From: Diphasiastrum complanatum
Taxonomy: Eukaryota; Streptophyta; Lycopodiopsida; Lycopodiales; Lycopodiaceae
Length of the DNA: 64,000 nt
Reading direction: 5' to 3'
NCBI GenBank assembly: GCA_029204225.1
Contig: CM055097.1
Location: 28,569,192 to 28,633,191 of the forward strand
Below the pieces are notes generated by a model. It had not been told where the DNA came from. It made no database searches and worked only from the letters and a program-made list of their open reading frames with translations. The translations under genes were made by a program, and so were the position numbers. Shown piece after piece: positions 5,506 to 64,000 of this stretch (position 1 is its first letter; every line of letters starts with the position of its first letter).

Positions 5506-5520
5506 TTGTTTTCTCTCTCT

Positions 5521-7312: not shown

Positions 7313-7773
<461 letters not shown>

Positions 7774-21188: not shown

Positions 21189-21247
<59 letters not shown>

Positions 21248-27503: not shown

Positions 27504-27687
27504 GAAAACAATCATGAAAACTCGGTGTTTCAGCTGAGAATAAGAGTTGATGCTTTCAGGCAAGATGTGTTGTGCCATACAAACTTGTGAGATACGAAAT
27601 GCTTTCAATCTCCCTTCGTAGAGTACTAGAGTGGGAGGGTTCCAATCAAAAGGCCGTATTTGGTTATAGATTGATCCAAATGAGTTG

Positions 27688-27693
27688 AATAAA
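27688..27693 (+). terminator. Candidate polyadenylation signal of TLDc gene
   Basis: AATAAA lies 185 bp after the TAA stop, a plausible 3'-UTR length. Plant poly(A) signals are loose, so this is only a candidate. Confidence 0.35.
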
Positions 27694-27699
27694 TAGATT

Positions 27700-28480: not shown

Positions 28481-28489
28481 GCTTTGAGC

Positions 28490-28720
28490 CCAAAAATCTC
28501 ACTCTACACTTTGCAACATCGCCCACTCTTTTACATTTAAAGCAAGTTCCTAAAAGTCCAAAAAGGTTACCTTTTTCCCATATATTGCTTTTTAATTTTC
28601 GATGTTTATGAAAGATGATTGCTCTTTAACTAGCCTCTTGAGCACATACGTGTGGAGAGGATTGAAACTCCTTGAGGGGACTGTGAGGACTTGCCCAAAA
28701 TAAAAAAATATCTCATAAAT
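28490..28720 (-). pseudogene. Zinc-knuckle fragment, retroelement ORF1/gag-like
   Basis: The minus strand at 28507-28545 reads CFKCKRVGDVAKC, a CCHC zinc knuckle whose His is Asp. The upstream sequence in a neighbouring frame reads GKAIYGKKVTFLDF. That order resembles the DUF4283/zf-CCHC proteins of plant LINEs, but no reverse transcriptase is seen. Low confidence in the class. Confidence 0.35.
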
Positions 28721-28903
28721 CATTCCCTTTAATCTTAATGGTAGAGAGATGAATCCAAGAGAAAACTTCGTCTTTGGAAATCTCTAGAATAGTAGATTAC
28801 CATAATTGGGTTATTAGTAAGCTTGTAGGGCCACAAAACATTAGGGGAACTTCGGACTCAATATGGGCCCTTTAAGAATGCAGAGAGAGAACATCATTAG
28901 ATT

Positions 28904-30083: not shown

Positions 30084-31060
30084 CGCCACCGTTACGGTCT
30101 AGCACACATGGAAACACACCATTGGGCCATGTGGACATAAAACCTTTGAAAAGTAAAAAAAAGCATCTTTACAAAAGGCCCTATTGGATTCAAGAGTTCC
30201 CCTAATGAAAATCAACTTAGCATAATTAGGTGACTTGAAAGTGCCTTCTTTCTAAAGGTTGGATGGAGGTGACATTGAAGTTGAGCTTTTCCCATTGGCT
30301 AACACTCTCATGCCAAATCAAAAGGGAGGCCTATCCTTGAAGTACACCAACTGCTACATGGCAAGAAATAAGTGAATCCATGAAGTCTTTTGATCTCTAT
30401 TTTCTTGGTAAGAGAAGATTACATAGCCAATCTCCACATGTTGACCTTCTCTTCTTGATTGAACAAACTTCCAAAGTAGCTTAAAAGGATCAACATCTGT
30501 CTTATGAGCTTCTAGAGAGTCAATGAGGTCACCATTTATAATCTCTCCTCCAACAAGTGTAACAACATAACCATATTCATTTAGACCAAAGGCTTGGGGA
30601 GAACTAGAAAAGATGCATTTGCTCTCTCAAATGTGGAAGATTCTGACAACTACATATATGTTTATTTGAATACACTATGTACAATTGTCACAAAAGCCAA
30701 TACTTCCAAGTACAACGGCTTACCTAATTAGGTGACAAACATTTAATGTAGTTAATACATGGATGCAATCTATAAATAGATCATCCCAGCACAAATTACT
30801 GGAAGCTCCGTCCATGAGACGTATTATTTGAGCCTCCCAGTTACGCCGTCATTTTTTGTTGTAATTGCTATTTTATTGTGCTTCAGTGTAATATAGCAGT
30901 AGCATGCTTTTCTATCTGTGTATAACGTAGATAAATGCTTGTTGTGATTGAATGCACTTTATTGTTGTTTGATAACATTGTTCACTCACTCTGATCAGAA
31001 CACGAACGTCTACGACTCCTCAATTTCTGATCAGACGATGGCCATCTTTGACGCCTGAGG
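30084..31060. other. Intergenic DNA and probable leader of next copia
   Basis: No gene seen. The stretch from about 30700 to 31060, just before the plus-strand gag, probably contains the leader or LTR end of that element, but I could not define an LTR edge or a primer site. Confidence 0.4.
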
Positions 31061-31063
31061 AAC

Positions 31064-32590
31064 TTGCGCTATGACATTGCTATTTTTTATTTCAGAACTA
31101 AACTTCACGAACCTAGAATCATTGACAAGTTCAATGGTTCTAACTTCTACATCTGGAAGTTAAAACTCCAGATGATGTTGATAGATAGAGATCTTTGGGA
31201 TGTAGTAGAAGGTGCTGACTTGAAACCAGAAGATGGTGATCAAGCGAAGACATGGAAGATCAAAGATCAGAAGGCCTTAGCATGCATCACACTCAATCTG
31301 GCTGACTTCCAAATATCCCATGTTACCACATGCAAAACCTCTAAGGATGCATTAGATTCGTTATCAAATCTCTATGAGACTCATGATGTAATCACTAGAT
31401 TACATCTTAGAAAGAAGTTCTTAGATTCTACTGCCATCACTTCTCACATCAATAGCTTCAAGTCTTTATTGGATCAGTTATCAGTTGTAGGATGTTCTAT
31501 TCAAGATGATGATGCGGTCATGACCTTGCTTTCTTCTCTTCCAAAGTCGTATGAACACTTTGTGGTGATGATCTCCACACAACCCAACCTCACTCTTCAA
31601 AAGGTGAATATTGGTCACCTACTTCAAGAAGAAATGTGGAGAAAGACTAGCAGCCTGTCTATCAAAGACAAATCCATGGCTCTATACACCAAGAAGAAAG
31701 ACTACTCCAAGGGCAAGAATCAAGTGCAGCAGCAACAACAGAACCTCATACTCAAGGTGAGAATAGTAGATTACGAAAGAAGCTTTTCTGCAGATATTGC
31801 AAGATAGCCAATCACGACATCAAGGAGTGTCGTATCCGGATCTACAATGAGGTAAAGAAGCAACAACAACAACAATAGCCAGACTCCTCCAACACGGCGG
31901 AATTCAAGGAACAAGATACACACTTGTTAATGCCTTACACCAGCAGCAACTAAGACTGTAATAGCTGGTACCTGGACAACGACGCTACCCAACACATGAC
32001 CTCTCGCAAGGAATGGTTCACCAAGTATGCAGCTTACAACAGAGATCAATTCATCTACCTCAGAGATTCAAGCACTCCGAACTGATGGTGGTGGCGAATA
32101 CCTCTCTAATGAGATGTCCGACTACATGGCTGAACATGGCATTAGAAGACAGTTCACCACTTCCTATTCACCTTAACAAAACGGAATTGTAGAAAGGAAG
32201 AATCGAACTCTTCTCAACTCAGCCAGATCCATGCTACATCAAGCACACCTACCTGCGAAGTTTTGGGCAGAAGCTACTGCCATAGCCTGTTACGTGTAGA
32301 ACAAATCCAGCACCAAAGCCGTCAACAACAAAACTCCTCATGAAGTTTGGCATGGGCACAAGCCTAGTGTCAGCCATTTAAAAATCTTTGGTTGTATATG
32401 TTTTGTTCACATTCCTAAACAACTTAGGAAGAAGCTGGATCATAGGACAAATAAATGTATTTTCATTGGCTATCGTGATGGACATAAAGCTTATAAAGTT
32501 TATGATCCATCCACCAATGTAGTATTTGTCTCTAGAGATGTAATATTTCAAGAACATACATACTATGATTTCAAACAACCATCGATAAAC
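31064..32590 (+). pseudogene. Copia gag-integrase with internal deletion (Copia-3)
   Basis: The gag frame (31064-31807) has FNGSNFYIWKLKLQMMLIDR and ISHVTTCKTSKDALD. In another frame a zinc knuckle FCRYCKIANHDIKECR follows, then the protease start WYLDNDATQHMTSRKEW (Asn-Asp for the usual Asp-Ser/Thr). At about 32068 it jumps directly to the integrase core (LRTDGGGEYLSNEM), so most of the protease and early integrase is deleted. It continues with QNGIVERKNRT (catalytic Glu kept, but a stop just before) and LKIFGCICFVHIPKQLR. In-frame stops lie near 32174 and 32297. It ends at about 32600 against an oppositely oriented copia piece. Confidence 0.88.
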
Positions 32591-32613
32591 GATGCTGTGT
32601 CATTTCATCCTAT

Positions 32614-33288
32614 TTTATGTATAGTAACAAGCTTAGCCACAGGAGCAAAAGTCTCATCATAATCAATGCCTTTGGTTTGTAAAAAAACTATGGCTACAAG
32701 CCTAGCTTTATGCTTACTTATTGATCCATCTTTATTATACTTTAATCTAAACACCCACTTGCAATCAAGTGGTTTCTTCCCTTGAGGAAGATTCACAAGA
32801 TCCCAAGTATGATTCTCAATGAGAGCATCATACTCTACTTGCATAGCATCCATCCAACTTTTAGATTTACAAGCATCTTCATAGCATGTTGGCTCATCTA
32901 ACATTGAAGTAAGAAAGGTGTAAGATGTGAAAGATGATGAGCCATCCCTTTGATCACCTTGAACATCATAGGTGAGCCTCAATGGCTTGGTCCTTGCCCT
33001 TGTAGATCTTCTTGGAGTTCTTGGAGTGCTTGCATCTTGAGGTGGATCCTCAAGTTCTTCTTCACTTGGAAGCTCCTCCTCCATCCTAGCATGATCCTTG
33101 GCATCAAGATGATTAGTAGCATTATCATCCAAATTACAAGCATGTCCTTCATAAAAAATAACATCCCTACTCACTATCACCTTTCTAGTGATGGTATTGA
33201 AGACTCTATGTCCTTTGCTATTCTCATCATATCCCACAAAGATGCCTTTCATGGATGTTGCATTATCCTTCTTCCTCTTATTGCATGA
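32614..33288 (-). pseudogene. Copia integrase-RT linker fragment
   Basis: The minus strand reads KGIFVGYDENSKGHRVF, an acidic linker, then SKSWMDAMQVEYDALIENHT, CKWVFRLKYNKDGSISKHKA and YDETFAPVAKLVTI. It covers the end of integrase and the start of RT. It is closest to Copia-1 (matching VEYDAL, YNQDGSISKYKARL) but is a separate copy. Both ends are truncated: the left joins Copia-3 head to head, and the right meets unrelated sequence at about 33288 just before repeat copy B. Confidence 0.85.
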
Positions 33289-33487
33289 ATTTTTTAATAT
33301 AATTAATTATGATGCTGATGATCTTCTCCTTGGTGTTGACGATGTAAATAAGGATGAGTTTTATTTAGAGAAATATTGCTTGAAAATAACAATTGAGAAA
33401 ATGCGCCAAAAAGAAGATGATCTTCCTTCTAAAGAGGAGTTTTTCAGATTTCAAAATCAGCTTGGTTATCCAAAACCAAATGTCTAA
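33289..33487 (+). other. Short acidic open frame, unrecognised
   Basis: About 65 codons read open on the plus strand to a TAA, with YDADDLLLGVDDVNKDEFY and ending LGYPKPNV. It lies between a copia fragment and repeat copy B, and has no counterpart left of copy A. The composition looks protein-like rather than random, but I do not recognise it. It could be the end of a transposon protein into which other elements inserted. Confidence 0.35.
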
Positions 33488-33506
33488 TCACCAACCTTTT
33501 AGTTTT

Positions 33507-35840
33507 TCAAAATCTTGAGTTGCAGCTATTATCTCTTTCCAAACCGAATATTGAATCTTGGTTTCTTTGCCAAAATAATTTGATAAAAATCTACGAGCTT
33601 TAGATCCTCCAATGCTTGGTTTGCATGGAATATTTCATGATTTACCTAAAAGCTTGTCGTCTTTTTTATTTTAACATGGCCTTTATGTAAGCCTGCTTTA
33701 GACAATACATCCTCTAATCTGGATATAGCTTGCTTTGAAGATGATTCCGGTTTGGTATTTCATTCAAACAAGATGTGAAGATATATTATTTTCTATTATA
33801 TGCACCTCTACATGCAATGTCCAAATATGAACATTCTGAATAGAAATCGATAGTACGAGTTTCCAATTAGAATCTTCTCAATCTCTTGATATTCTTGTAC
33901 TCCTTGTCATGTCTTTTGATGTCTTCATGCAGTATAAACAAGGGTGTTCAGAGTTTGCACCATGGGATACATTGAACATACATTTTAATGTCTTCATCAG
34001 ATCTCCTGCTAAATGCCATTCTATGTTGAAAGTGCCAATTCCAAGAACATTGAGTATAACTCCCTCCATGTGATTTTTGATGGTGGCAAGATATGACATT
34101 CTATTAAATATCCATGAGAGAATGTCATGGTCTTCTTTCAACACCTATAAAAGAAACAAAAAATTGATCTAGTATAATATTGACATAGAGAAAATTATTC
34201 AAATAGAATCCATATAAGATTATCCCTATAGAATCTATAAAAGAACTACTATACCTGAAAAGCTGCTAACCACCAAATATCATTTTTTGATTGAACATTG
34301 AAGTTGAGGCCTTTTGAGTATTCTAAATTTGAAAGTGCTTCATTCATGATCGTAAGATTGACTCTCTCCATTTTTTGTCCTTTTATAATTTCAGACTAAT
34401 CTAACTTAAGAACAACTATCAACTTGTTATTGACATTCTCATTTGTAATACCATAAAAATATGTGATGAAGGTTAGTAACTATTTAATGTCAATAATTAG
34501 ATTGTTGGAATTGCTATAAACTAGACATTCTCCCTTCGAGCAATACACTTCATTGATATGAGATGGATTACCAACTATTTTCCGCATACCTTGGTTTAAC
34601 ATGTCATTTTTTTAAAAAAGATGAAATGGTTGTGGGATTGGAAACTTTTGAATACTTACCTGTGCAAATGCTTCATTTATCATCTTAAACATTGTTGCAT
34701 ATGCTTCTCTACTGATGCTAGAAAAATCACATACCCCCTGAACTAATGTAGTGTCCAATATTTCTCCAACTTCATTCATAATGCTATCAGTAATTGAAGC
34801 CTTAATATTTTTTATTTTGTTATTGTTTAACATTGATTTCATAGATTTAGAAGTTAAAAGAGAACCTAGTGAGTTTCCAATGGAAATCTCATCGGCCAAA
34901 TGGTCTTCAAGAACCAATGTTGATCTGCATTGCAAATATAATGTTCATAAAATAGTCAATAGAGATTAGGACACTTGTAGTATTCACAACATCATAATAA
35001 ACAAATAAACTATGAGTGGAAATTAATAAATAACAAAACTAGTATGATTGAATCAAAAAGTTCAAGAAATATTAAACCAAATAAGCTATAACTTTCTTAA
35101 ATGCACGGATTCTTCTTTTTCGATAACCTCCTCTAGATGATAGATCACATATATCCTTGGTTACCAGTCTTTTTCTCTTGTTGCTTTTTACCTTTCTGTT
35201 GAGCAGATCCATATCTTTAACAAGAGACAAATATGAGATGCGCATGGATTGAAATGCAATTTTTATCTCATCATTACTAGTTGTAAAATAATGCAAAGGA
35301 GATTTCAACATTTGAATCTCTTTCTTGGACATCTCATTTTCTTCCAAACAAGTTTTCAACTTTGTATATTTTTATTTGCATTCCTTTAATGTTTTCCTAG
35401 ATTCCTCTTCCAAAAAATGTATTCTTTGCATTGAATGTGCATTCCCATAGAGTTTCAAATTCTCACAGTAAGCCTAAAGGCCATTTTTGCCTTAACACAT
35501 ATAGATTATTAATTGAGTCACCGAATGAAAATCCGGATGTTGCAATGAATATGGATCAATAGGATACAATGTTCCTAATGACCATAAATCTACATGCCTT
35601 AGCATTTCCTCATGTATTGGATCATATCAAAAGTTAAAAATTTGGGTTGTTTTGAATTTCTTGTCCTGAGCGGAGCATATTCTGGTGACAGATCCACATG
35701 AAGATGATGAAGCTTTGTCATCAATACAATAGCATAGTAGCAAACAACACAATGACAATAACAGAGCTAGAGATGGCGCTAATAAACACTTGTATGACCC
35801 TAGAGATGGAGATGTGGTAGGCTTTGTTTCTAAAATGTCA
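33507..35840 (-). mobile_element. 2.3 kb repeat copy B, transposase-like cargo
   Basis: Second copy of the 7774-10063 repeat, same orientation, same right-hand end (ATGTCA at 35840), with about 45 bp more near 33841-33885. On its minus strand are an N-terminal segment (EEMLRHVDLWSLGTLYPID), the coiled-coil/KRKR segment (35359-35072), an exon with ASITDSIMNEVGEILDT (to about 34660), an exon with a stop just after LKLD, and the HLAGD...CLYC exon (34144-33878; Asp at 34001-34003). Two stops in the third exon make this copy defective too, but different lesions from copy A show the two decayed independently after duplicating. Right flank: non-copia DNA. Left flank: the short unrecognised frame. 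Confidence 0.65.
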
Positions 35841-37136: not shown

Positions 37137-37640
37137 AGTACAGTCATAAATGCTTTTTTCCACAATCTGAACCTATGGACAACCTAATTTTGACATTTAA
37201 AGATCATCTAGCAAGTCGACGAAGGTTCATAATGATGTTATGATGCTCGGCGAAAATTCTCAAAATGAAATATCACTGAACATTCGCCTGACTCAAAAAT
37301 TGAATTTTCTCTTGTCAGAAACCTTCGCGCACCTCAATTTAGATAAATCAAGGGTGGATGTACAGTCTGAGAGTCAGCGAAGGTTTTTGATACTATATTG
37401 GTCAAATCGGCCCAAAACAGTAGTTTTCTAAGTCCAATACTGTGCTTTCATTTTCTTATGCTGATGACTTCCTGACTTTTGCTCATCAGCTTTTCCTTAT
37501 TTTTTTTTCAACTGTCTTTTTCCAAAAAAAAAGTCAGCAAATTAAATACTGAAAACAAAAAATTGAAAACAAATAAAATGAAAAAATATATTGAGATCAG
37601 GCTTGCTGAACTGGCGGAGCAGGTTGCCGAAACTTGCGTA
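37137..37640 (-). repeat. Gypsy-A 3' non-coding end, copy 1
   Basis: Closely matches 43995-44500, which lies at the same place relative to the other gypsy copy. It contains the words CGAAGGTT and GCGAAGG. It is either the start of the 3' LTR or the 3' untranslated region plus part of the LTR. It is truncated at 37137 against a copia fragment. Confidence 0.7.
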
Positions 37641-37641
37641 A

Positions 37642-40600
37642 TCAGCTGTCATTTACCGGAGTATCAAATCGTTTCCCATCCAAGTGTTCAAGAATTACTG
37701 CGCCATAGTTCAGGATTTCCTTCACTTTATACGAACCTTCCCCAGTAAACTTCAACTTACCCTTGATCAGCTTGGTTTTGTACATCAATGCAAGATCTCC
37801 TGCTTCCAAATCTTTCTTATGCAATCGCCGATTGTGCCATGCCTTGTGGCGGGCTTTCTCTGCTGCTAAGGCATGAACTGCCATCAATCAGGTTTCACAT
37901 AATTTGTGCAACGCATCGTGGCAAAGTTGTAAAGACTGATCATCATTTAATCGTTCCGTTGCTCCTATGCATAAAGATGGGATTAAAAATTCAATTGGCC
38001 TAACAGCATCTTGACGATAAACCAGTTGAAAAGGTGTTTGATTTGTACTATTTTTGTAAGCGATTTTGAATGCCCATAATGCTGCATACAGTTTATGTTC
38101 CCAATCAGACTGACTCGTTTCAACTGTCTTTGTCATAATGGTGCAGAGAATCTTATTGGAAGATTCAGCTTGGCCATTCCCTCTGGGATAATAGGGAGTA
38201 CTAAATCTATGTATAACAAAAAAATCTTCCAGTAAACACTTTATTGTTTGATTAACAAAGTGTGTACCCCGATCACTGACAATTTTGATCGGACATCCAA
38301 ATCTGATTATAATATTTTCATATAGAAACTTAGTTGTAGATTTCACATCAGCTACTTTGATAGCTTTGGCTTCAACCCACTTGGTCATATAATCAGTTGC
38401 GACGATAATGTAGCGAGCCTGAGATCCTTGAGCAGCGGGATGAATAGGACCAACATAATCTAGTCCCCATTTTTCAAAAGGTGCTTGCGATAAAACCAGA
38501 TGTAAGGGTCCATAATTCTGTCGAGTAGGCCGTCGTGCTCACTGGCAGACATCACATGTCCGAATAAAATTTTTGGATTTGTAAGTTGTCTGCTTGCAAA
38601 TCGTATAGGATAATTCTTCTTATAGTCACCTGGCTATGTCAAAACTGATCCAATGGCGTATTTTGAGGTGTCCGTATGAACATGAAACTCTAATGTCCAA
38701 TCTGGAGAACGCAGTATTGGTGCTGAAGATAATGCTTTTTTTAACTTTTCAAAGGCTTCTAACGCCTCTACTGTCCAAATAGGAACAATAGTTAACTTGT
38801 ATATAGGTCGTGCTAAATCCGCAAAGAAGATAATAAAAATTTGATAGTAGTTCGCATGACCCATAAACACATAAACTCCTCGAATTGTTGCTGGCGGTGG
38901 CAATTCCACAATACCTTTGATCTTAGAATAATCGGTAGCAATACCATGTCTTGATATCACATGTCCAAGCACCACTTCGTGAAAAACCCATATCTGGCAT
39001 TTTTCTGCATTTAGCGAAATCTGATATTTGCGACATCTTTCAAAGACTTTTTCCAATCGATCCAGGTGGTCTGTATCTGTACTATGAACTCCCAAGTCAT
39101 CCAAGTAAATTTCAAGAAATTTTTGCAGATAATCTTTAAAGGCAAATTGCATTACTCTTTGGAATGAACTTGGTGTATTACAGAGTCCAAACGACATTAC
39201 TTTGTAAGCATAGTTCTGTTGCAAAAGCAGTTTTGTGGCGATCGGCAGGTGCAATCTTAACCTGGTTGTAACGATTAAATCCATCCAGGAAACTATAAGC
39301 TTCCACTCCAGCAAGGCGATAATGCTTTCAGTAAAAGGTGCGGGAAAGTGATCCTTCCATGTCACTTTATTCAATGCTTTGAGATTCATACAAATTTGCA
39401 ATTTCTCATTTTTTTAGGAATAATGACAATCGGTGAAATCCATTCGGTATGCTCGATCTCATAAATGAAATCGACGTCAAGCAATCTCTGAAGTGCTTTC
39501 TTTATCAGATCTGCCACATTAGGATTACAGCGATAGAACTTTGTAACCTTTGGTACTGCATCAGGTACTAAAGATATGGTATGTTCATTGACTGATGTCG
39601 GAATACCCTTCAAATCTTAATAAGTCCATGCAAAACAATCTTGATACTTAATAAGTAGCAAACGGAGTGCTTGATACTGTTTAGGATTAAGTTGTGATCC
39701 CACTTGTACAATCTTTTCTGGTTCTCCTGGTTCTGCAAGATTCATTGGCTGCGTCCTAGCTGGGCCATCGTAAACCTCTTTAGATTCTGACATGTGTTCT
39801 TCAGGTTCACAATGTGCTTTAGGTAACATGATTACTACATCATCCAATGTATAACGTTTAAAATGCTCTGGCATATCATGCTGGACTACATTTGCTTGTT
39901 CTTTTTCGAACGGACTTGTCTTGGATCTTTGTTTAGTCTTCTTAGCAGGAATTGATCGTGGAGGTGATGACTTCCGGGATGATTAATCTTTCTTCTCAAG
40001 TGAAGACTTTTTAGATGATGATGTCTTGCTGAAGATCTGACTTGAAGAATTATTCTTGACTTTTTCTTTGTCTTTATTCAATAGAGGTGGCACTTCGTTT
40101 AAATCAATCTTTTGAGGGGGATTTTCCCATTTCAGGACCGTATTATAATCTTGCTTTGCTTGTTTCTTCGTCATCGAACCTGTCATCATGTCTCCCTTCA
40201 ATATAACTACTTTGGACGATTTGATTGTTGGTTCATCAGGAACATTACGCACTCCAAATCTGGTCAGATCCATATGATGTAGAATCTGTTCATCCGTAAG
40301 TTCTACATTGCCATCATAAGTTAAGGCATGGCTCATTGGTATGAGATCATCCTCAATTGGATCTGGTATAGGTTCCGTTGATATCCAGGCTACATTCAGC
40401 ACATTTAGTGGAAACATGATTGGCGTATCCAAAGTTCGATCTAACAAGGAAATCTCGCTCATCTCTGATTGAATATCTTGTTGACACATATATCTTGCTG
40501 TACAATCAATTGTTGAAAGAGCTTCGTTCCAATTGACAGTATCCGTTTGAGAATCGTAGTGAACTCCCAATTTTTTCTCTGGTCGATCACAAGTGTAATC

Positions 40601-43994: not shown

Positions 43995-44500
43995 GGTACT
44001 GTCATAAATGTTTTTTTCCACAATCTGAACCTATGGACAACCTAATTCTGACATTTTAAGATCATCTAGCAGGTCAGCGAAGGTTCATAATGACGTTATG
44101 ATGCTCGACGAAGGTTCCAAAAATGGCATATCACTGAACATTCGTCTGACTCAAAAAATTGAATTTTCTCTTGTCAGAAACCTTCACCCACCTCAATTTC
44201 GATAAATCAAGGGTAGATGTATAGTCTGAGAGCTCAGCGAAGGTTTCTGATACTGTATTGGTCAAATAGACCCAAAAAAGTGGTTTTCTAAGTCATTTTT
44301 CATAAAAATACTGTGCTTCCGTTTCCTTATGCTGATGACTTCCTGACTTTTGCTCATCAGTCTTTTCTTATTTATTTAATTTTTTTCAACTATCTTTTTT
44401 CAAAAAAAGTCAGCAAATTAAATACTGAAAACAAAAAATTGAAAACAAATAAAATGAAAATATATATCGGGATCAAGCTTGCTGAACTGGCGGAGCAAGC
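43995..44500 (-). repeat. Gypsy-A 3' non-coding end, copy 2
   Basis: Partner of 37137-37640. It follows directly after the integrase tail of copy 2 and leads into the leader of copy 1, so the two gypsy copies are head to tail and may share a single LTR here. Confidence 0.7.
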
Positions 44501-47500
44501 TGCCGAGACTTGCATAATCGGCTGTCATTTACCGGAGTATCAAATCATTTCCCATCCAAGTGCTCAAGAATTACTGTGCCACAGTTCAGGATTTGCTTCA
44601 CTTTATACGGGCTTCCCCAGTAAACTTCAACTTACCCTTGATCAGCTTGCAAGATCTCCTGCTTCCAAATCTTTCTTATGTAATCGCCGATCGTGCCATG
44701 CCTTGCGGCAGACTTTCTCTACTGCTAAGGCATGAACTGCCATCAATCGGGTTTCACATAATTTGTGCAACGCATCATGGCAAAGTTGTAAAGACTGATC
44801 ATCATTTAATCGTTCCGTTGCTGCTATGCATAAAGATGGGATTAAAAATTCAATTGGCATAATAACATCTTGACCATAAACCAATTGAAAAGTTGTTTGA
44901 TTTGTACTATTTTTGTAAGCGGTTTTGAATGCCCATAATGCTGCATATAGTTTATGTTCCCAATCAGACCGACTCATTTCAACTGTCTTTGTCATAATGG
45001 TGCAGAGAATCTTATTGGAAGATTCAGCTTGGCCATTCTCTCTGGGATAATAGGGAGTACTAAATCTGTGTATAACAAAAAAATCTTCCAGTAAACACTT
45101 TATTGTTTGATTAACAAAGTGTGTACCCCGATCACTGACAATTTCGATCGGACATCCAAATCTGATTATAATATTTTCATATAGAAACTTAGCTGTAGAT
45201 TTCGCATTAGCTACTTTGACAGCTTTGGCTTCAACCCACTTGGTCATATAATCAGTTGCGACGATAATGTAGCGAGTCTAAGATCCTTGAGCAGCGGAAT
45301 GAATAGGACCAACATAATCTAGTCCCCATTTTTCAAACGGTGCTTGCGATAAAATCGGATGTAAGGGTCCATAATTCTGTCGAGTAGGCCATCATGCTCG
45401 CTGGCATACATCACATGTTTGAATAAAATTTTCTATGTCCTTATGAAGCGTAGGCCACCAACAACCAGATTGCAAAAGTTTGCGAACAGTAATATCTGTA
45501 GAGAAGTGTCCTCCACCCATGTCATCATGTGAAAACATGACTAGATCTGGTACTTCATGCGGTAAAACACATCTTCGTAAAATATTATCTGATCCACGAC
45601 GATACAATTGTCCTGCAATTAATTGATAAGGTTGAGCCTTATGAATCAATTGTCTTTTCTGTACTTTTGTCAAAGAGTCATTTGGTTGTCCTAGCATCAG
45701 GTACTCAACAATATCTACCACCCACTCAGGTACTGCTTCAACATAGAACAACGCAACATCTGGCAGTTCATCATCCACTTTAGTATTAACTGGTGCGGAT
45801 TCAATTCTGAAACGTGATCGGCTAGATAATGTTGCTTCCCCTTTCTGACCACAATTCGAAAGTCAAATTTAGTCAATAATAATAACCATCTTGCAATACG
45901 TCCAGTATTACATGTCTTATTTACCAAGTAAAGTAACGGTTGATGATCCGTATAAAATGCAAAGTGCATGAGATAGTGACAAAATTTCCGAACAGAAAAA
46001 ATCATGGCTAGCGCTTTACATTCTGTTGTTGAATAATTCTTCTCTGAATTTGTAAGCTGTCTGCTTGCAAATCGTATAGGATAATCCTTCTTATAGTCAC
46101 CTGTCTACGTCAAAACTGATCCAATGGCGTATTTTGAGACGTCCATATGAACATGAAACTCTAATGTTCAATCTGGAGAATGCAGTATTGGTGCTGAAGA
46201 TTATGCTTTTTTTAACTTTTCAAAGGCTTCTAACGCCTCTACTGTCCAAATAGGAACAATAATAATTTTGTATATAGGTTGTGCTAAATCCACAAAGAAG
46301 ATAATAAAAATTTGATAGTAGTTCGCATGACCCATAAACACATAAACTCCTTGAATTGTTGCTGCCGGTGGCAATTCCACAATAACTTTGATCTTAGAAT
46401 AATCGGTGGCAATACCATGTCTTGATATCACATGTCCAAGTACCACTTCGTGAGAAACCCATATCTGGTATTTTTCTGGATTTAGAGAAATTTGATTTTT
46501 GCGGCATCTTTCAAAGACTTTCTCCAATCGATCCAGGTGGTCTGTATCTGTACTATGAACTCCGAAGTCATCCAAGTAAATTTCAAGAAATTTCTGCAGA
46601 TAATCTTTAAAGGCAAATTGTATTACTCTTTGGAATGAACTTGGTGCATTACAGAGTCCAAACGACATTACTTTGTAAGCATAGGTGCCCCATTCTGTTG
46701 CAAAAGCAGTTTTGTGACGATCGGCAGGTGCAATCTTAACCTGGTTGTAACCATTAAATCCATCCAGGAAACTATAAGCTTCCACTCCAGCAAGGCGATC
46801 CAAAATGTTTTCAGTAAAAGGTAATGAAAAGTGATCCTTCCGTGTTACTTTATTCAATGCTTTGAGATTCACACAGATTCGCAATTTTTCATTTTTCTTA
46901 GGAACAATGACAATCAATGAAATCCATTCGGTATGCTCGATCTCATAAATGAAATCGACGTCAAGCAATCTCTGAAGTGCTTTCTGTATCAGATCTGCCA
47001 CATTAGGATTACAGCGATAGAACTTTGTAACCTTTGGTACTGCATCAAGTACTAAAGGTATGGTATGTTCAATGACTGATGTCGGAATACCCTTCAAATC
47101 TTGATAAGTCCATGCAAAACAATCTTGATACTTAATAAGTATCAAACAGAGTGCTTGATACTGTTCAAGAGTAAGTTGTGATCCCACTTGTACAATCTAA
47201 TGTGGTTCTCCTAGTTCTGCAATATTCATTGACTGCGTCCTAGCTGGGCCATCGTAAACCTCTTTAGATTCCGGCATGTGTTCTTCAGGTTCACGATGTG
47301 CTTTAGGTAACATGATAACCACATCATCCAATGTATAACGTTTAAAATGATCTGGCATATCATGCTGGACTACATTTGCTTGTTCTTTTTCGAAAGGACT
47401 TGTCTTGGATCTTTGTTTAGTCTTCTTAGCAGGAATTGATCGTGGAGGTGATGACTTTCGGGATGATAAATCTTGCTTTTCAGGTGAAGACTTTTTAGAT

Positions 47501-47868
47501 GATGATGTCTTGCTGGAGATCCGACTTGAAGAATTATTCTTGACTTTTCCTTTGTCTTTATCCAATAGAGGTGGCACTTTGTTTAAATCAATCTTTTGAG
47601 GGGGATTTTCCCATTTCAGGACCGTATTATGATCTTGCTTTTCTTGTTTCTTCGTCATCGAACCTGTCATCCTATCTCCCTTCAATATAACTGCTTTGGG
47701 CGATTTGATTGTTGGTTCATCAGGAACATTACGCACTCCAAATCTGGTCAAATCCATATGATGTAGAATCTGCTCATCCGTAAGTTCTGCATTGCCATCA
47801 TAAGTTAAGGCATGGCTCATTGGTATGAGATCATCCTCAATTGGATCTTGTATAGGTTCCGTTGATGG
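44501..47868 (-). pseudogene. Gypsy-A copy 2: RT-RNase H-integrase
   Basis: Lacks gag and protease and begins in the spacer before RT at 47868. In order: spacer frame (47868-47197); RT (47187-46201) with FLDGFNGYNQVKIAPADRHK, MSFGLCNAPSSFQRVIQF and IYLDDFGVHSTD; RNase H (about 46080-45850) with FYTDHQPLLYLVNK; integrase zinc finger (GCWWPTLHKDIENFIQTCD); and core (45247-44642) with ATDYMTKWVEAK just upstream, VSDRGTHF and NGQAESSN. The three catalytic acids of integrase and YLDD of RT remain. Stops break the frame near 47199, between RT and RNase H, and near 45280. This copy keeps the RNase H region that copy 1 lost. Confidence 0.92.
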
Positions 47869-51180: not shown

Positions 51181-54195
<3,015 letters not shown>

Positions 54196-54816
54196 CACTT
54201 GAATGGCCAAAGTGCCACTTGTAAATCCACACCTAAGGTAGTTTACCATGAGTCAAGAAGAGTGGTTGTGTCCATTTGGTAGTGATTCCTACTTTGTAGG
54301 ATCTAGACCTTGATTTATGATGAGATTTGTACCTACCATGCACCTACCAAGCATGACTCTTGGATCTAGGCTAGGGTTTTCACATTAGGGCAAGAAAGTT
54401 GAGTCTACTTACTTATTACATGCTGGATTTTCACCTAACTTTGCAAAGGAAGTGTCAAGTTAGTATGTATTCCCATTCTCCATAGTGAAAAAATAGAAAC
54501 GTTTTGGAGCCTCAAGGAGAAACTCGAATTTTCTCTCTCTATGTATGGTGATTGTGATTGATTTCAATGTAACTAAGCTTTGGCACACTTTAAACTCTGT
54601 CTACAGGCCGTACTACAGCCTCATTTTCAAACGTGTGAATTCGGATTTCAGTTTATGATCAATGATCTGATTGTCTCTCCTTGTTTTCTATCAAGCTGCT
54701 AAACTAGATCTTATTTTCTGATGAGTAGTATCTGATAGATTGTTTAACAAGCACACAATCAACCTTGTGGATCATTCAAAGATCCATTTATGGTCCTTAG
54801 TACTGTAATTTTCACA
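54196..54816 (+). repeat. Copia LTR remnant, plus strand
   Basis: The inner edge is fixed by TTTTCACA followed directly by a tRNA-Met primer site. The outer edge (about 54196) is a guess. It contains TTCAAACGTGTGAA and GGCCGTACTAC, related to words in the Copia-1 LTR. No gag follows, so this is an LTR plus primer-site remnant. Confidence 0.5.
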
Positions 54817-54829
54817 TGGTATCAGAGCC
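54817..54829 (+). promoter_or_regulatory. Copia primer-binding site (TGGTATCAGAGCC)
   Basis: Exact initiator-tRNA-Met type site immediately after an LTR end. Confidence 0.85.
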
Positions 54830-55627
54830 AAGTACAAAAAATTGTGACGTGTGCCAAAGGGCAACCAAATCACACAAAACTGGCGAAATGCCCTTGCATC
54901 CAATTCTGGCCAAAAACATCATTTGAAAAGTTGGGGTCTTGACTATGTTTGCCCCATTGCAATGTCCACTTTACATTGCATTGGATCCATTGTAAATATA
55001 AGAACTATAGATAATCCATTTTTGGTAGTGAGTGCTTCATTTGCTTGCTTCTTTGGTCTATATGTAATTAAGTACCAACTTCTTCACATTTCAAAGTTTT
55101 CATTTCCTATTGTGGATTTTTTCTCTTGTGATTTTCCTTTTAGTTCTAGCCATCCATCCAACTATAAATGGGGAGAGACAAGTTATTACGTAATGTTGAG
55201 TTCTAGTACATCTAACTTTTCTACATGCAACTGACATTTTGACTATAACAGTACTTTGACAAGAGTGAGGCCCTCAATGGTAAAATCTCACTAAACTTAT
55301 GTATGAATATGAAATCAAAAGTGTCCAAAGTGACTCCTATCACTTATGTACCCTTGGAATTGACTACACAACTAACATGAATCCAATAGGGAGACTATAA
55401 AATCACTTCAATTAAATAACTTTGATCTATGATTTATTTTTTTGTGTCATTTCTTTCTACCTTGCATTTTCACTCATATAAGGACACGTTTCCATGACAT
55501 TTCAACTTTGATCATATTAAAACATTGAAACTTATCACACTTTAAAAATCAAGAAAATTTTGATCAAGTACTTCGATATGCATATTAAAAATGTTCTCTA
55601 CAGATGTATGTAGAAGATTAATGTGGC
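54830..55627. other. Intergenic DNA, no gene seen
   Basis: AT-rich, with no recognisable gag after the primer site and no exon before the LRR gene end. Confidence 0.4.
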
Positions 55628-56451
55628 TTAGTGAGTACAATAGATCTTATTGTTTTGTTGAACACAAGTAATGTGCCGCAAGTAGCACAATGCGATGCTA
55701 TAACCTATCAAGAATCCACCAAGTGATACATTGTTTGATATCCAACTTCCTACATGGTGACGTATGTCGTTTGAGGGCCTTGCTACTTGTGGAATTGGAA
55801 ATGGAGAACGAGGAAGTCCACAAAGGTCTGGATTCCCCTCAAAGCTTGTGTTAGTAAATGTACTTAACTGCCCAGAAGGAGGAATTTTTCCAATAAGTTG
55901 ATTAGTAGAAAGATTAAGGTATTCCAAGAAATGTAGAGAACCAAGTTGGAGAGAAATTGCACCAGTTAAACGATTATTTGACAGATTTAAAGACTCCAAT
56001 TGCAAGAGATTACCGATGCTAGGAGGAATAAAGCTAGTAAAAGCATTTTTTGATAGATTTGAATTGTGAAGCCGACTTAAATTGCCCAACACAAAAGGTA
56101 TGCTCCCATTAAAATAGTTTCCAGATAAATCAAAAGACCCTATTACCATAATGTCTGAATCAATAAGTCTAAGAACATATTTTTTAGAATATTATCAATG
56201 TATATAATTGTGCCCTTGGAGTCAGTCATATTATAAAAAATGTCTACTGAGGTGGCATTGTTGCTTGTCTTGAATCCTTTCATTTCCTTCACGGCTTCTA
56301 GGTATAGAGCTTCCAGTCTTTCAAAAAAATAGTTATTTGATAAGTCAAGAATCCAAAGTGATGAAAATTTGCTTAGACAAGGAGGGAATGTTCCTTGAAG
56401 GTTGTTATAGCCAACCATAAAAATCCATAAAGTAGATGCCAACATTACCAA
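55628..56451 (-). pseudogene. LRR receptor-like protein, C-terminal end
   Basis: Two overlapping minus-strand frames give the end of a plant receptor-like protein (RLP). The first (56451-56143) has LQGTFPPCLSKFSSLWILDL and the island/C3-type segment (MKGFKTSNNATS, FYNMTDSKGT). After a frameshift near 56145 the second (56149-55628) has four final LRRs (SFDLSGNYFNGSIP, LESLNLSNNRLTGAI), the conserved cap SFEGNPDLCGLP, a membrane segment (SLGGFLIGYSIALCYL) and a short tail ending at a TGA/TAA-type stop. RLPs are cell-surface receptors in defence or development that lack a kinase and signal through partner kinases. The order and cap are diagnostic of the family. It is continuous with the LRR array to the right and is broken by at least one frameshift here. 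Confidence 0.9.
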
Positions 56452-56850
56452 GCAATCTGGATGTTGCCTTTAAGGTGATTTCTCCTAAGATCTAATGCAC
56501 GTACTCGAGTACAATTCTGTAGAGAAGTTGGAATTGAACCTGTTAGGTGGTTGTCATAAAGTGATATAAGTCTAAGGGAGCACTCACTTGATTAGGGATT
56601 GGACCTGTAAAAAGATTTTCCGCCAAGTTAAGGTTTTCCAAGCAGAAGCCACCAATTGAAATAGTACCCTGAGAATGAAACCATGTACAATTCCAACCTG
56701 ACGCTAATTGTATGATAGATTCAGGGATCGGTCCTTCTAGATAATTTGAGGTTAAGCCGAATGTCTTAAGTTGGGAGAGATTTCCAAAAGACTGTGGAAT
56801 TGTTCCTCGAGCTGATTATGAGATAAATCTAAAATTCTCAAAGAAGTGAG
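56452..56850 (-). pseudogene. Degenerate LRRs between array and RLP end
   Basis: The minus strand still shows ordinary, non-amplified LRR sequence in shifting frames (e.g. LSSNQLEEQF and a stretch with ASAWKTLTWR). Stops are frequent. These repeats are much more diverse than the array to the right and represent the original gene body. Confidence 0.6.
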
Positions 56851-59323
56851 TTTTCCCAAGCTTGGAGTAATAGTTCCTTTAAGTAAATTGTTTGACATAT
56901 CTAACATGTTTAGAGAGGACGGATTTCTCAATGATGGGGGAAAATTTCGTGAAACTTATTGGAGGAGAGGTCCAGAATTTGTAGAGAGGAGAGATTTCCC
57001 AATTATGGGGGGACAATCTCGTAAAACTTATTGGAGGAAAGGTCCAGAATTTGTAGAGAGGATAGATTTTCCAAAGATGGGAAAATTATCCCGTGAAACT
57101 TACTTGAGGAGAGGTCGAGAATTCGTAGAGAGGACAGATTTCCAAATGATGGCGGAATTATCCCGTGAATCTTATTTGAGAACAGGCCAAAAATTTGTAG
57201 AGAGGACAGAGTTCCCAATGATGGGAGAATTATCCTGTGAAATTTATTTGAGCGAAGGTTCAGAGTTTGTAGAGAGGACAGATTTCTCAATGATGAGAGA
57301 ATAATTCCGTGCAATTTATTTGAGGAGAGGTTGAGAATTTGGAGAGAGGACAGATTTTTCAATGATGGAGGGATAATCATGTGAAACTTATTTGAGGACA
57401 GGTCGAGAATTTGTAGAGAGGACAGATTTTCCAATGATGGGGGAATTATCCCGTGAAACTTATTTGAGGAGAGGTCGAGAATTTGTACAGAGGTTAAATT
57501 TTCCAATGATGGGGGAATTATCCCATGAAACTTATATGAGAAGAGGTCGAGAATTTCTAGAGAGGAGAGATTCCCCAATGATGGCAAAATTATCCAGTGA
57601 AAATTATTTGAGAAGAGGCCGAGAATTTGTAGAGAGACAGAGTTTCCAATGATGGGAGAATTAGCCCATGAAACTTGAAGGTTGAGAGTTTGTAGAGAGG
57701 ACAAAAATCCCAATGATGAGGGAATAATTTCGCGAAACTTATTTGAGGAGAGGTCGAGAATTTGTAGAGAGGACAAATTTTCCAATGATGGGGGAATTAT
57801 CCCACGAAACTTATTTGAGGAAAGATCGAGAGTCTGTAAAGAGGACAGATTTTCCAATGATGGGAGAATAATCCCGTGAAACTTATTTGAAGAGAGGTCT
57901 AGAATTTGTAGAGGACAAATTTTCCAATGATGGGGGGATTATCCTATAAAACGTATTTGAGGAGACGTCGAGAATTTGTAGAGAGGATAAATTTTCCAAT
58001 GATGGCGAAACTATCTCCTGAAACTTGTTTGAGAAGAGGCCGAGATTTTGTAGAGAGAATAGAGTTCCCAACGATGGGAGAATTATCCCGTGAATCTTAT
58101 TTGAGCGAAAGTTGAGAGTTTGTAGAGAGGACAGATTTTCCAATGATGAGGGAAAAATCCCGTGAAATTTATTTAAGGAGAGGTCAAGAATTTGGATAGA
58201 GGATAGATTTACCAATGATGGGAGAATTATCCCATGAAACTTATAAGAGAAAAGGTCGAGAGTTTTTAGAGAGGACAGATTTTCCAATGATGGGGGAATA
58301 ATCCCGTGAAATTTATTTGAGGAGAGGTCGAGAATTTGTAGAGAGGACAAATTTTCCAATGATGGGGGAATTATCTCGTGAAACTTATTTGAGGAGAGGT
58401 CAAGAATTTGTAGAGAGGACAAATTTTCAAATGATGGGAGAATTATCCGGTGAAACTTATTTGAGCGAAGGTTGAGAGTTTGTAGAGAGGACAAATTTTC
58501 CAATGTTGGCAGAATTATTTCGTAAAACTAATTTGAGAAGAGGCCGAGAATTTGTAGAGAGGTTAGGGTTTCCAATGATCGGGGAATTGTCTTGTGAAAC
58601 TTATTTGAGCGAAGGTTGAGAGTTTGTAGAGAGGCAAGATTTCCCAATGATGAGGGAATTATCCTGTGAAAATTATTTCAGAAAAGGTCGAGATTTGTAG
58701 AGAGGACAAATTTTCCAATGATGTGAAATTATCCCGCGAAACTTATTTGAGGAGAGACACAGAATTTGTAGAGAGGACAGATTTCCCAATGATGGGGCAA
58801 TTGTCCCATGAAATTTATTTGAGAAGAGGTCGAGAATTTGTAGAAAGGACAGATTTTCCTATGATGGTTGAATTATCCTGTGAAACTTATTTGAGAAGAG
58901 GCCGGGAATATGTAGAGAGAGAAGAGAGTTCCCAATGATGGAAGAATTCTCATGAAACTTATTTGAGTGAAGGTTGAAAGTTTGTAGAGAGGACAGATTT
59001 TCCAATGATGAGGGAATAATCCTGTGAAATATATTTGAGGAGAGGTCGAGAATTTGGAGAGAGAATAGATTTTCCAATGATGTGGGAACTATCCCATGAA
59101 GGTTATTTGAGAAAAAGTCGATTGTTTGTAGAGAAGACATATTTTTGAATGATGGGGGAATAATTTCGTGAAACTTATTTGAGGAGCGGTCGAGAATTTG
59201 TAGAGAGGATAGATTTTCCAATGATGAAAAATTATCTCGTGAAACTTATTTGAGGAGAGGTCGAGAATTTGTAGAGAAGACAGATTTCCCAATGTTGGCG
59301 GAATTATCCTATGAAACTTATTT

Positions 59324-60796
59324 GAGAAGAGGCCGAGAATTTGTAGAGAGGACAGAGTTCCCAATGATGGGAGAATTATCTCATGAAACTTATTTGAGTG
59401 AAGGTTCAGAGTTTTTATAGAGGAAAGATTTTCCAATGATGAGAATAATGCCGTGAAATTTATTTAGGAGAGGTCGAGAATTTGGAGAGAGGACAGATAA
59501 CCCAATGATGTAAAAATTATCCCATGAAACATATTTGAGAAAAGGTCAAGAGTTCGTAGAGAGGACAAATTTTTCAATGATGGGGAAATAATCCCGTGAA
59601 ACTTATTTGAGGAGAGGTCCAGAATTTGTAGAGAGGACAGATTTTCCAATGATGGGTGAAATTATCCCTTGAAACTTATTTGAAGAGAGGTCGAGAATTT
59701 ATAGAGAGGACAGATTTTCCAGTGATGGCAGAATTATCCCGTGAAACTTATTTGAGAAGAGGCCAAAAATTTGTAGAGAGGACAGAGTTCCCAATGATGG
59801 GAGAATTATCCGGTGAAACTTATTTGAGCGAAGGTTGAGAGTTTGTAGAGAGGACAAATTTCCCAATGATGAGGGAATAATCTCGTGAAATTTATTTGAG
59901 TAGAGGTTGAGAATTTGGAGAGAGGACAGATTTTTCAATGAGAGAAAAATTTTCCCATGAAGCTTATTTGAGAAAAGGTCGAGAGTTTGTAGAGAGGACA
60001 GATTTCCCAATGATGGGAGAATAATTCTGTGAAACTTATTTGAGGAGAGGACCAGAATTTGTAGAGAGGACATATTTCTCAATGATGGGGGATTTATCTC
60101 GTGAAACTTATTTGAGGAGAGGTCGAGAACTTGTACAGAGAGGACATATTTCCGAATGTTGGCGGAATTATCCCATGAAACTTATTTGAGAAGAGGACAA
60201 GAATTTGTTAAGAGGACAAACTTCCCAATGATGGGAGAATTATCCCGTGAAGCTTATTGGAACGAAGGTTGAGAGTTTGTACAGAGAAGAAAGATTTTCT
60301 AATGATGAGAGAATAATCTCGTGCAATTTATTTGAGGAGAGGTTGAGAATTTGGAGAGAGGACAGATTTTCTAATGATGGAAAATTATTCCCATGAAACT
60401 TATTTGAGGAAAGGTCAAGAGTTGTAGAGAGGACAAATTTTCCAATGATGGGAGAATAATCCCGTGAAACTTATTTGAGGAGAAGTCGAGAATTTATAGA
60501 GAGGACAGATTTTTCAATGATGGAAGAATTATCCCGTGAAACTTATTTCAAGAGAGGTCAAGAATTTGTAGAGAGAACAAATTTTCCAATGATGTCGGAA
60601 TTATCCCGTGAAAGTTATTTGAGAAGAGGCCAAAAGTTTGTAGAGAGGAAAGAGTTCCCAATGATGAGAGAATTATCCCGTGAAACTTATTTGTGATGAG
60701 GGAATAATACTGTGAAATTTATTTGAGGAGAGGTCGAGAATTTGGATAGAGGACAAATTTACAAATGATAGGGGAATTATCCCATGAAACTTATAA
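59324..60796 (-). repeat. 1,473-bp tandem duplication, copy 1
   Basis: Starts at GAGAAGAGGCCGAG and ends just before the same word at 60797. Every stretch compared, including all predicted peptides, is identical to copy 2. 1,473 is divisible by three but is not a multiple of 72. Confidence 0.9.
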
Positions 60797-62269
60797 GAGA
60801 AGAGGCCGAGAATTTGTAGAGAGGACAGAGTTCCCAATGATGGGAGAATTATCTCATGAAACTTATTTGAGTGAAGGTTCAGAGTTTTTATAGAGGAAAG
60901 ATTTTCCAATGATGAGAATAATGCCGTGAAATTTATTTAGGAGAGGTCGAGAATTTGGAGAGAGGACAGATAACCCAATGATGTAAAAATTATCCCATGA
61001 AACATATTTGAGAAAAGGTCAAGAGTTCGTAGAGAGGACAAATTTTTCAATGATGGGGAAATAATCCCGTGAAACTTATTTGAGGAGAGGTCCAGAATTT
61101 GTAGAGAGGACAGATTTTCCAATGATGGGTGAAATTATCCCTTGAAACTTATTTGAAGAGAGGTCGAGAATTTATAGAGAGGACAGATTTTCCAGTGATG
61201 GCAGAATTATCCCGTGAAACTTATTTGAGAAGAGGCCAAAAATTTGTAGAGAGGACAGAGTTCCCAATGATGGGAGAATTATCCGGTGAAACTTATTTGA
61301 GCGAAGGTTGAGAGTTTGTAGAGAGGACAAATTTCCCAATGATGAGGGAATAATCTCGTGAAATTTATTTGAGTAGAGGTTGAGAATTTGGAGAGAGGAC
61401 AGATTTTTCAATGAGAGAAAAATTTTCCCATGAAGCTTATTTGAGAAAAGGTCGAGAGTTTGTAGAGAGGACAGATTTCCCAATGATGGGAGAATAATTC
61501 TGTGAAACTTATTTGAGGAGAGGACCAGAATTTGTAGAGAGGACATATTTCTCAATGATGGGGGATTTATCTCGTGAAACTTATTTGAGGAGAGGTCGAG
61601 AACTTGTACAGAGAGGACATATTTCCGAATGTTGGCGGAATTATCCCATGAAACTTATTTGAGAAGAGGACAAGAATTTGTTAAGAGGACAAACTTCCCA
61701 ATGATGGGAGAATTATCCCGTGAAGCTTATTGGAACGAAGGTTGAGAGTTTGTACAGAGAAGAAAGATTTTCTAATGATGAGAGAATAATCTCGTGCAAT
61801 TTATTTGAGGAGAGGTTGAGAATTTGGAGAGAGGACAGATTTTCTAATGATGGAAAATTATTCCCATGAAACTTATTTGAGGAAAGGTCAAGAGTTGTAG
61901 AGAGGACAAATTTTCCAATGATGGGAGAATAATCCCGTGAAACTTATTTGAGGAGAAGTCGAGAATTTATAGAGAGGACAGATTTTTCAATGATGGAAGA
62001 ATTATCCCGTGAAACTTATTTCAAGAGAGGTCAAGAATTTGTAGAGAGAACAAATTTTCCAATGATGTCGGAATTATCCCGTGAAAGTTATTTGAGAAGA
62101 GGCCAAAAGTTTGTAGAGAGGAAAGAGTTCCCAATGATGAGAGAATTATCCCGTGAAACTTATTTGTGATGAGGGAATAATACTGTGAAATTTATTTGAG
62201 GAGAGGTCGAGAATTTGGATAGAGGACAAATTTACAAATGATAGGGGAATTATCCCATGAAACTTATAA
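60797..62269 (-). repeat. 1,473-bp tandem duplication, copy 2
   Basis: Direct tandem copy of 59324-60796. After 62270 the sequence changes to a different LRR variant. The apparent 100% identity points to a very recent event or an assembly artefact. Confidence 0.9.
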
Positions 62270-64000
62270 GAGAAAAGGTTGAGTGTTTTTAGAGAGGACA
62301 GATTTTCCAATGATGGGGGAATAATTTCGTGAAATTTATTTGAGGAGAGGTCGAGAATTTGTAGAGAGGACAAATTTTCTAATGATGGGAGAATTATCTC
62401 GTGAAACTTATTTGAGGAGAGGTCAAGAATTTGTAGAGAGGACAAATTTCCCAATGATGGGGGAGTTATCCCGTGAAACTTATTTGAAGAGAGGTTGAGA
62501 ATTTCTAGAGAGGACAGATTTTTCAATGATGGTGGAATTATCCCATGAAACTTATTTGAGAAGACGCCGAGAATTTGTAGAGAGGACAGAGTTTCCAATG
62601 ACAGGAGAATTATCCCGTGAATCTTATTTGAGCGAAGGTTGAGAATTTGTAGAGAGGACAAATTTTCCAATGATGAGGGAATAATCCGGTGAAATTTATT
62701 TTAGGAGAGGTCGAAAAATTTAAGAGAGGACATATTTCTCAATGATGGGAGAATTATCCCATGAAACTTATTTGAGGAAAGGTTGAGAGTTGGTAGAGAG
62801 GACAGATTTTCCAATGATGGGGGAATAATCTCGTGGAACTTATTTGAGGAGAGGTGCAGAATTTGTAGAGAGGATAGATTTTCCAATGATGGGAGGTTTA
62901 TCCCGTGAAACTTATTTGAGGAGAGGTCAAGGATTTGTAGAGAAGATAGATTTCCCAGTGATGGCTGAATTATCCCGTGAAACTTATTTGAGAAGAGGTT
63001 GAGAATTTGTAGAGAGGAAAGAGTTCCGAATGATAGGAGAATTATCCCGTGAAACTCACCTGAGCGAAGATTGAGATTTATAGAGACGACAGATTTCAGA
63101 ATGATGAGGGAATAATCCCTTGAAATTTATTTGAGGAGAGGTAGAGAATTTGGACTGCGGATAGAGATGTGGATGAAAAGGTTGAGAGCTTGTAGAGAGG
63201 ACAAATTTTCCAATGATGGGAGAATTATCTCGTGAAACTTATTTGAGGAGAGGTCAAGAATTTGTAGAGAGGACAGATCTCCCACTGATGGGGGAGGTAT
63301 CTCGAAACTTGTTTGAGGAGATGTCGAGAATTTGTAGAGAGGACAAATTTTCCAATGTTGGCAGAATAATTCCGTAAAACTAATTTGAGAACACGTCGAG
63401 AATTTGTAGAGAGGTTAGGGTTCCCAATGATGGGAGAATTATCTTGTGAAACTTATTTGAGCGAAGGTTGAGGGTTTGTAGAGAGGCAAGATTTTCCAAT
63501 GATGAGGGAATTATCCTGCGAAAATTATTTCAGAAAAAGTCGAGATTTATAGAGAGGACAAATTTTCTAATGATGTGAAATTATCCTGCAAAACTTATTT
63601 GAGGAGAGACACAGAGTTTGTAGAGAGGACAGATTTCCTAATGATGGGGAAATTATCCCATGAATCTTATTTGAGGAGAGGTCGAAAATTTGTAGAAAGG
63701 ACAGATTTCCCTATGATGATTGAATTATCTTGTGAAATTTATTTGAGAAGAGGCCGAGAATATGTAGAGAGAGAAGAGAGTTCCCAATGATGGAAGAATT
63801 ATCTCATGAAACTTATTTGAGTGAAGGTTGAGGGTTTGTCGAGAGGACAGATTTTTCAATGATGAGAGAATAATCCTATGAAATATATTTGAGGAGAGGT
63901 CGAGAATTTGAAGAGAGGATAGATTTCCCAATGATGTGGGAACTATCCCATTAAGCTTATTTGAGAAAAGGTCGATTGTTTGTAGAGAAGACATATTTTT

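Follow-up and report, generated by a model that had tools for sequence, protein, structure and literature searches.

Human NBPF/Olduvai and LPA kringle IV are coding higher-order repeats in which protein domains have been amplified in multi-domain, frame-keeping blocks, and tomato Cf-2 is a functional, in-frame gene with about 38 leucine-rich repeats (LRRs). In Hcr2 genes such as Cf-2, intragenic recombination multiplies the 24-residue LRRs of the variable region, so that the number of LRRs varies and the repeats are nearly identical at the nucleotide level (PMC7468133). Transposable elements as sources of satellites are the subject of the review PMC9659126. No LRR-derived plant satellite was recognised in the literature at the level of titles and abstract openings, where subscription papers are thinly covered, so that this is weak evidence of absence. 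Here we describe a tandem LRR array in Diphasiastrum complanatum (Lycopodiaceae). The window, i.e. the whole stretch of 64,000 nucleotides analyzed, is C6:28569192-28633191 (contig CM055097.1), and coordinates above 64,000 continue its numbering into 40 kb fetched to the right. We conclude, with a probability of about 0.87, that the locus is a pseudogenised LRR receptor-like-protein (RLP) gene in which about five ancestral LRRs have expanded, six LRRs at a time, into a local array resembling a satellite.

The likeness to Cf-2 and Cf-5 lies in the multiplication of 24-residue LRR codons within a gene, but this locus differs from Cf-2 in having 265 unit lengths in one run, a six-LRR higher-order unit, broken frames, and decay. 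With the higher-order satellites of plants it shares head-to-tail monomers, higher-order periodicity, block duplications, a length difference between two contigs, and decay at CG and CHG sites. Unlike them, the array spans 19 kb within a recognisable gene, and a search of the genome with the array listed matches at the locus itself, on contigs nearly identical to it, and over 50 bp of a relative. NBPF/Olduvai and LPA kringle IV stay coding, whereas this array is dead.

Extent and higher-order organization of the array

Tandem Repeats Finder (TRF) detected a 72-bp-period array from 56,911 to the right window end (alternative period 216 bp), with scores of 4,321 and 5,851 that are far beyond chance, and wraparound alignment of the minus strand placed its start at 56,905. 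Both results bear out an earlier note on this DNA, made from its letters alone, which had proposed TRF and a per-unit alignment as checks. Its figure of about 99 tandem LRR units holds for the window, where the array measures 7,096 bp or 98.6 unit lengths (102 rows including partial ones, by wraparound alignment), but the window edge cuts this count. A further 11,991 bp (64,001-75,991) complete an uninterrupted array at 56,905-75,991 of 19,087 bp, 265.1 unit lengths, and 271 rows, which ends at C6:28645182; with the pieces beyond two insertions the total is about 286 unit lengths. The number of units is thus not near normal RLP size, and exceeds the one claimed.

The translated unit, LSSLQILDLSSNKFHGII(L/P)PSLEN, is a single 24-residue plant-type LRR on the minus strand. 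In the window part, 71 of the 100 internal rows are exactly 72 bp long, mean pairwise identity of the units is 81%, and identity to their consensus is 88%. The earlier note's description of the array as having “so little divergence” therefore overstated the case, with the exception of one perfect 1,478-bp duplication.

Six LRR unit types recur in the order ABCDEF, forming a 432-bp (6-monomer) higher-order repeat whose consensus is open, with neither stop nor frameshift. Among 80 window units, counted with one copy of the perfect duplication removed, identity is 0.799-0.807 at lags 1-5 and rises to 0.836 at lag 6, a value equalled in none of 5000 order shuffles; at the multiples of six from lag 6 to lag 36 it is 0.836, 0.835, 0.823, 0.824, 0.824, and 0.824. 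The 216-bp period reported by TRF was rejected as the main higher-order unit, since the excess is found at lag 6 and not at lag 3 (0.802). The ABCDEF order is broken 7 times in the 102 window rows, compared to 26-27 times in the five best-scoring of 20 shuffles. The unit types were learned in the window only, and the sequence at 64,001-75,991, which took no share in shaping them, replicates the result with 9 breaks in 170 rows versus 60-71 in 10 shuffles. The array as a whole has 16 breaks, versus 93-112 in shuffles.

Blocks larger than the higher-order unit have also been copied. At 90-94% identity, units 2-10 and 71-79 have four single-base indels in common, two of which are separated by three bases and could stem from a single event; because frameshifting indels are common to both, the block was copied after frame loss. 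The array therefore has the higher-order structure and copy turnover of a satellite. The perfect duplication of 1,478 bp is of another kind, as it is repeated without difference where units are 81% alike, and it invites the explanation that the length of the array is wholly or partly an assembly artefact. C773, a second contig of the same assembly, is 79.6 kb long. Its identity to the C-terminal flank rounds to 100% and that to C6 along the locus is 98.7-99.3%, and it is either a haplotig or a very recent duplicate of the C6 locus, and so not a fully independent witness. It lacks the second copy of this stretch: its alignment offset jumps from 4,331 to 5,806, and at offsets 1,440-1,499 it has no exact run longer than 33 bp. 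C773 nonetheless has an array of its own of 17,630 bp and 244.9 unit lengths, with its units in the same order as in C6 except for that one block, and, apart from two at offset 5,960, all repeated 100-mers in the C6 array lie at offset 1,473. A false duplication can therefore explain at most about 1.47 kb, and we consider an artefactual array improbable. For the perfect duplication itself, the alternatives are a difference between haplotypes and an error in the assembly of C6.

In a search of the 1.74-Gb genome for the array, the matches listed were on C6, C773, and C4170, with a weak match of 50 bp on C18; the counts are lower bounds, as 5 of 7 candidates were scored and the window itself was absent from the list, and other arrays may exist. 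C4170 matches 88,598-98,595 (24,598-34,595 of the right-hand sequence) at 99.74%. A 25-base pattern from the unit had no match in the viral collection.

Broken reading frames

The whole array carries 120 indels, 103 of them frameshifting, and stops in 50 of its 271 rows. In the window, where counts over 102 rows include both copies of the perfect duplication, 29 rows hold 41 indel events, of which 4 are in multiples of three, and 18 rows hold stops; 62 rows have neither. With one copy of the duplication removed, 81 rows contain 31 indels (28 frameshifting) and 15 stops. The two longest open reading frames (ORFs) of the window array, of 284 and 206 aa, match LRR_1, LRR_8, and LRR_4 in Pfam; no further ORF of at least 200 aa is found in that part of the array. 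Matches of array ORFs to SAM_3, Suppressor_P21, HHH, and Abi_alpha were taken as chance. The SAM_3 assignment (E 2e-15) falls on pure LRR repeats at 57003-57857 (-), an instance of the weak chance matches that accumulate in such arrays.

The C-terminal flank is broken as well, with reading frames that run in turn 2, 1, 0, 2, 1 (56,955-55,631), or four changes in about 1.3 kb. The earlier note was right that unamplified LRRs adjoin the array, which they do on its left side, but the receptor gene with an intact-looking C-terminal cap that it described does not stand, for the frame is disrupted in the array, in the C-terminal flank, and in the 5' piece alike. The single continuous ORF expected of an RLP runs through none of the three.

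Were the frame breaks errors of sequencing or assembly, the locus could encode a working receptor-like protein of hundreds of LRRs, and the exact 72-bp length of most internal rows, the rows free of indel and stop, and the open higher-order consensus would all suit this reading. Against it stand the in-frame stops of the array and the like state of C773, which has 89 frameshifting indels and stops in 47 rows. Some frameshifts are common to copies 8% apart, and sequencing error is rejected as the source of those that diverged copies share.

Gene identity, relatives, and insertions

Tandem 24-residue extracellular LRRs of plant type, as in RLPs, are present at the locus. A protein search with the C-terminal ORF returned at least 189 matches in the genome, and the best of those listed, besides the locus and C773, were on C18 (67%) and C5 (62%). 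DNA identity to the C-terminal flank is 69% for the C5 relative and 75% for the C18 relative. The C5 relative is a single open ORF of 1,031 aa and normal length, with LRRNT_2 and LRRs and no kinase match; it has the LRR ectodomain, cap, and short tail without a kinase that characterize an RLP, and its collinearity with the flank extends to residue 1012 of its 1031. The C18 relative consists of an ORF of 437 aa and one of 541 aa, which overlap. Both have LRR, cap, and tail types as at this locus but are unamplified, with similarity to the amplified unit limited to 36 bp (C5) and 76 bp (C18). The C-terminal LRRs are matched equally well by LRR kinases and by the RLP of 7drb. No kinase was found among the 5 ORFs scanned of 25 listed; at 52,500-55,640, outside the scanned set, minus-strand stretches free of stops reach at most 105 aa.

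Residues 573-619, 645-722, 726-766, 767-855, and 857-1012 of the C5 relative align in order along the C-terminal flank, mapping to 56,946-55,679. On the other side, 5' LRRs at 93,290-92,521 match C5 residues ~176-439, with LRR matches that are partly ambiguous. Because these 5' LRRs and the 3' flank from residue 573 bracket it, the array occupies the place of about 130 residues, roughly five LRRs, in the C5 relative.

At 75,992 the uninterrupted array is bounded by an element with long terminal repeats (LTRs) of 651 bp that are 97.85% alike (75,992-76,642 and 81,350-82,000), whose inner frames look copia-like by eye. A 5-bp target duplication, TAGAT/CAGAT with one mismatch, surrounds it, and array lies on both sides, so that it was inserted within the array. 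In both contigs about 50 bp of array are left isolated, with the copia-like element on one side and a 9-kb insertion on the other (C773:76213-76264 and C6:28651190-28651241). Beyond about 9 kb of inserted DNA there is further array at 91,060-92,510 (1,451 bp, 20.2 unit lengths), and by eye both insertions meet the repeat in unit register. This splitting of the gene also counts against a live receptor. LRRs of another kind follow the 5' array piece up to about 93,400 and are likewise frame-broken. They include a smaller tandem amplification of a different LRR type (L011:8858-9380; 148-bp period, 3.6 copies, 85% matches), so that what seems to be a single gene would hold two independent expansions of LRRs.

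Substitution pattern and decay at CG and CHG sites

Changes were counted from the type consensus, taken as ancestral, with window tests on 81 rows and standard deviations that ignore shared descent. The 492 changes in the window comprise 170 synonymous, 308 non-synonymous, and 14 stop changes, where 178/299/15 are expected with context kept and 166/309/17 without. The counts show no purifying selection on the units since the higher-order amplification. The codon for the structural Gly decays as silent sites do, which again speaks against a working protein; on frames, stops, and substitution pattern a live giant receptor is rejected, and we give it next to no probability. The array thus joins head-to-tail tandem monomers to non-coding evolution, both traits of satellites.

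The C-to-T decay depends on sequence context and is two- to threefold stronger at CG and CHG sites than at CHH sites. In the window, C>T or G>A changes per site amount to 0.183 at CG, 0.220 at CHG, and 0.066 at CHH, and the values at non-synonymous sites are not much lower (0.175, 0.272, and 0.068). The site-level excess over CHH has p = 5e-7 for CG and 3e-7 for CHG, and persists with the second duplicated block left out. Corresponding C>T values are 0.151, 0.172, and 0.074 in the right part and 0.103, 0.092, and 0.034 in the 5' piece. Three retrotransposon pairs in the window show CG > CHG > CHH, with CHG weak in two of them. The pattern fits CG and CHG methylation, by which silenced repeats in plants are usually marked.

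Proposed history of the locus and points against it

In the mechanism we propose, LRR codons of the gene would have undergone unequal exchange, as in Hcr2 genes such as Cf-2 (PMC7468133), to give a six-LRR block ABCDEF. Homologous units would then have recombined unequally, raising the copy number of this in-frame 432-bp block about 45-fold; unequal crossing-over is the most likely mechanism of growth. The frame would have been lost and the gene split by the copia-like element and the 9-kb insertion, on the view that the 5' piece beyond the insertions probably belongs to the same gene. Since then the array would have evolved as tandem DNA without coding function, probably methylated at CG and CHG sites, in which blocks are still added and removed as in a small satellite. 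The suggestion in the earlier note of a coding repeat turning satellite-like fits this history well, given the LRR register, the in-frame 432-bp higher-order unit, and the lack of purifying selection, together with the CG/CHG decay, the block duplications that carry frameshifts, and the unamplified open relative.

The relative order of gene death and amplification can be put forward with less assurance. The array may have expanded in a long-dead gene, so that a live many-LRR gene never existed; this sub-question is compatible with the pseudogene interpretation, and such an origin is possible, with the odds leaning slightly the other way. It agrees with the absence of purifying selection since the higher-order amplification and with the copying of some blocks after frame loss. 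The amplified 432-bp block is nevertheless free of frameshift and stop, yet chance could keep 432 bp clean in a young pseudogene. With both duplicated blocks left out, 71 window rows have 27 indels, 22 of them at places seen once, and hence most postdate amplification. The frame changes of the flank are no denser than those of the array, about one per 200 bp, and the flank therefore does not look older. As most frameshifts came after amplification, a live gene with hundreds of LRRs may have existed; if so, selection did not keep such a giant protein for long.

Several observations weigh against the proposed history. An LRRNT-type pattern had no match at 92,001-97,000 in a motif scan, the only kind of search made there; the extension to the right proposed in the earlier note thus yielded more array and 5' LRRs but no N-terminal cap, which may be decayed or displaced. 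The 5' piece beyond the 9-kb insertion could also belong to a neighbouring copy. The fit to neutrality is imperfect: synonymous changes fall below expectation in the whole array (537 vs 591 +/- 18), in the right part (330 vs 369 +/- 13), and among changes common to at least three units (84 vs 93 +/- 6), and A/T sites minus one variable column show a slight synonymous excess (46 vs 39 +/- 5). The deficit is the opposite of purifying selection and is probably inflated by shared descent and by the window-learned types. One retrotransposon pair has hardly any CHG excess (6/127 vs 40/1265), and the pairs have CG > CHG but the big array has CHG at least as high as CG, with most CHG sites confined to three columns of the unit. 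The past CG/CHG methylation that the decay suggests is read from substitutions, and is limited accordingly.

Feature coordinates and other features of the window

Table 1. Features of the LRR array and its C-terminal flank, in window coordinates.
Feature	Position	Strand	Remarks
Window part of LRR-derived tandem array, 72-bp monomers in 432-bp higher-order repeat	56905..64000	-	TRF and wraparound alignment
Longest residual ORF of window array, 284 aa, LRR_1/LRR_8	57003..57857	-	
Second residual ORF of window array, 206 aa, LRR_1/LRR_8	57883..58503	-	
Unamplified LRRs, cap, and tail; pseudogenised flank in five pieces of changing frame	55631..56955	-	Collinear with C5 relative residues 573-1012
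Perfect 1,478-bp tandem duplication, copy 1	59324..60801	-	Offset 1,473; C773 has one copy
Perfect 1,478-bp tandem duplication, copy 2	60797..62274	-	
0.82-kb block, units 71-79	58325..59146	-	92% identical to 63,179-64,000
Partner of the 58,325-59,146 block, units 2-10	63179..64000	-	

Elsewhere in the window, two retroelement regions at 37138-40382 and 43996-47866 are 91-94% identical, of like orientation, and about 7 kb apart, with RVT_1 in one; they are probably gypsy-type and served as a control in the comparison of methylation decay. A 2.3-kb pair at 7768-10063 and 33500-35840 (94% identical by BLAST) adjoins a copia-type polyprotein (RVT_2, rve) at 9850-12027. A GA/TC dinucleotide run at 52118-52403 has 143 copies with 98% matches, and other long ones lie at 5411-5500, 7317-7430, and 21170-21244. 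A cluster of direct and inverted repeats of ~170-200 bp, 81-83% alike, is found at 29095-29892. An open frame of 253 aa at 18887-19648 (+) is without a Pfam match and is possibly part of an ordinary gene.

Implications

The origins of satellite monomers are often unreadable, and here the source codon block, the gene register, and the six-LRR growth step can be read, as can the unamplified open relative and the later decay at the same locus. Tentatively, and at somewhat under even odds, we suggest that a receptor LRR domain seeded a local higher-order satellite in which about five LRRs became 265-286 units, growing in frame and perhaps partly in a live gene. The gene would then have died and the array been methylated and interrupted by insertions, with blocks continuing to turn over between haplotypes, so that every stage from gene to satellite could be read at a single locus. 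For annotation, models of a “giant LRR receptor” may be pseudogenic arrays. For the gene family, the locus shows where LRR-number variation of the Hcr2 type can lead once selection no longer holds the array.

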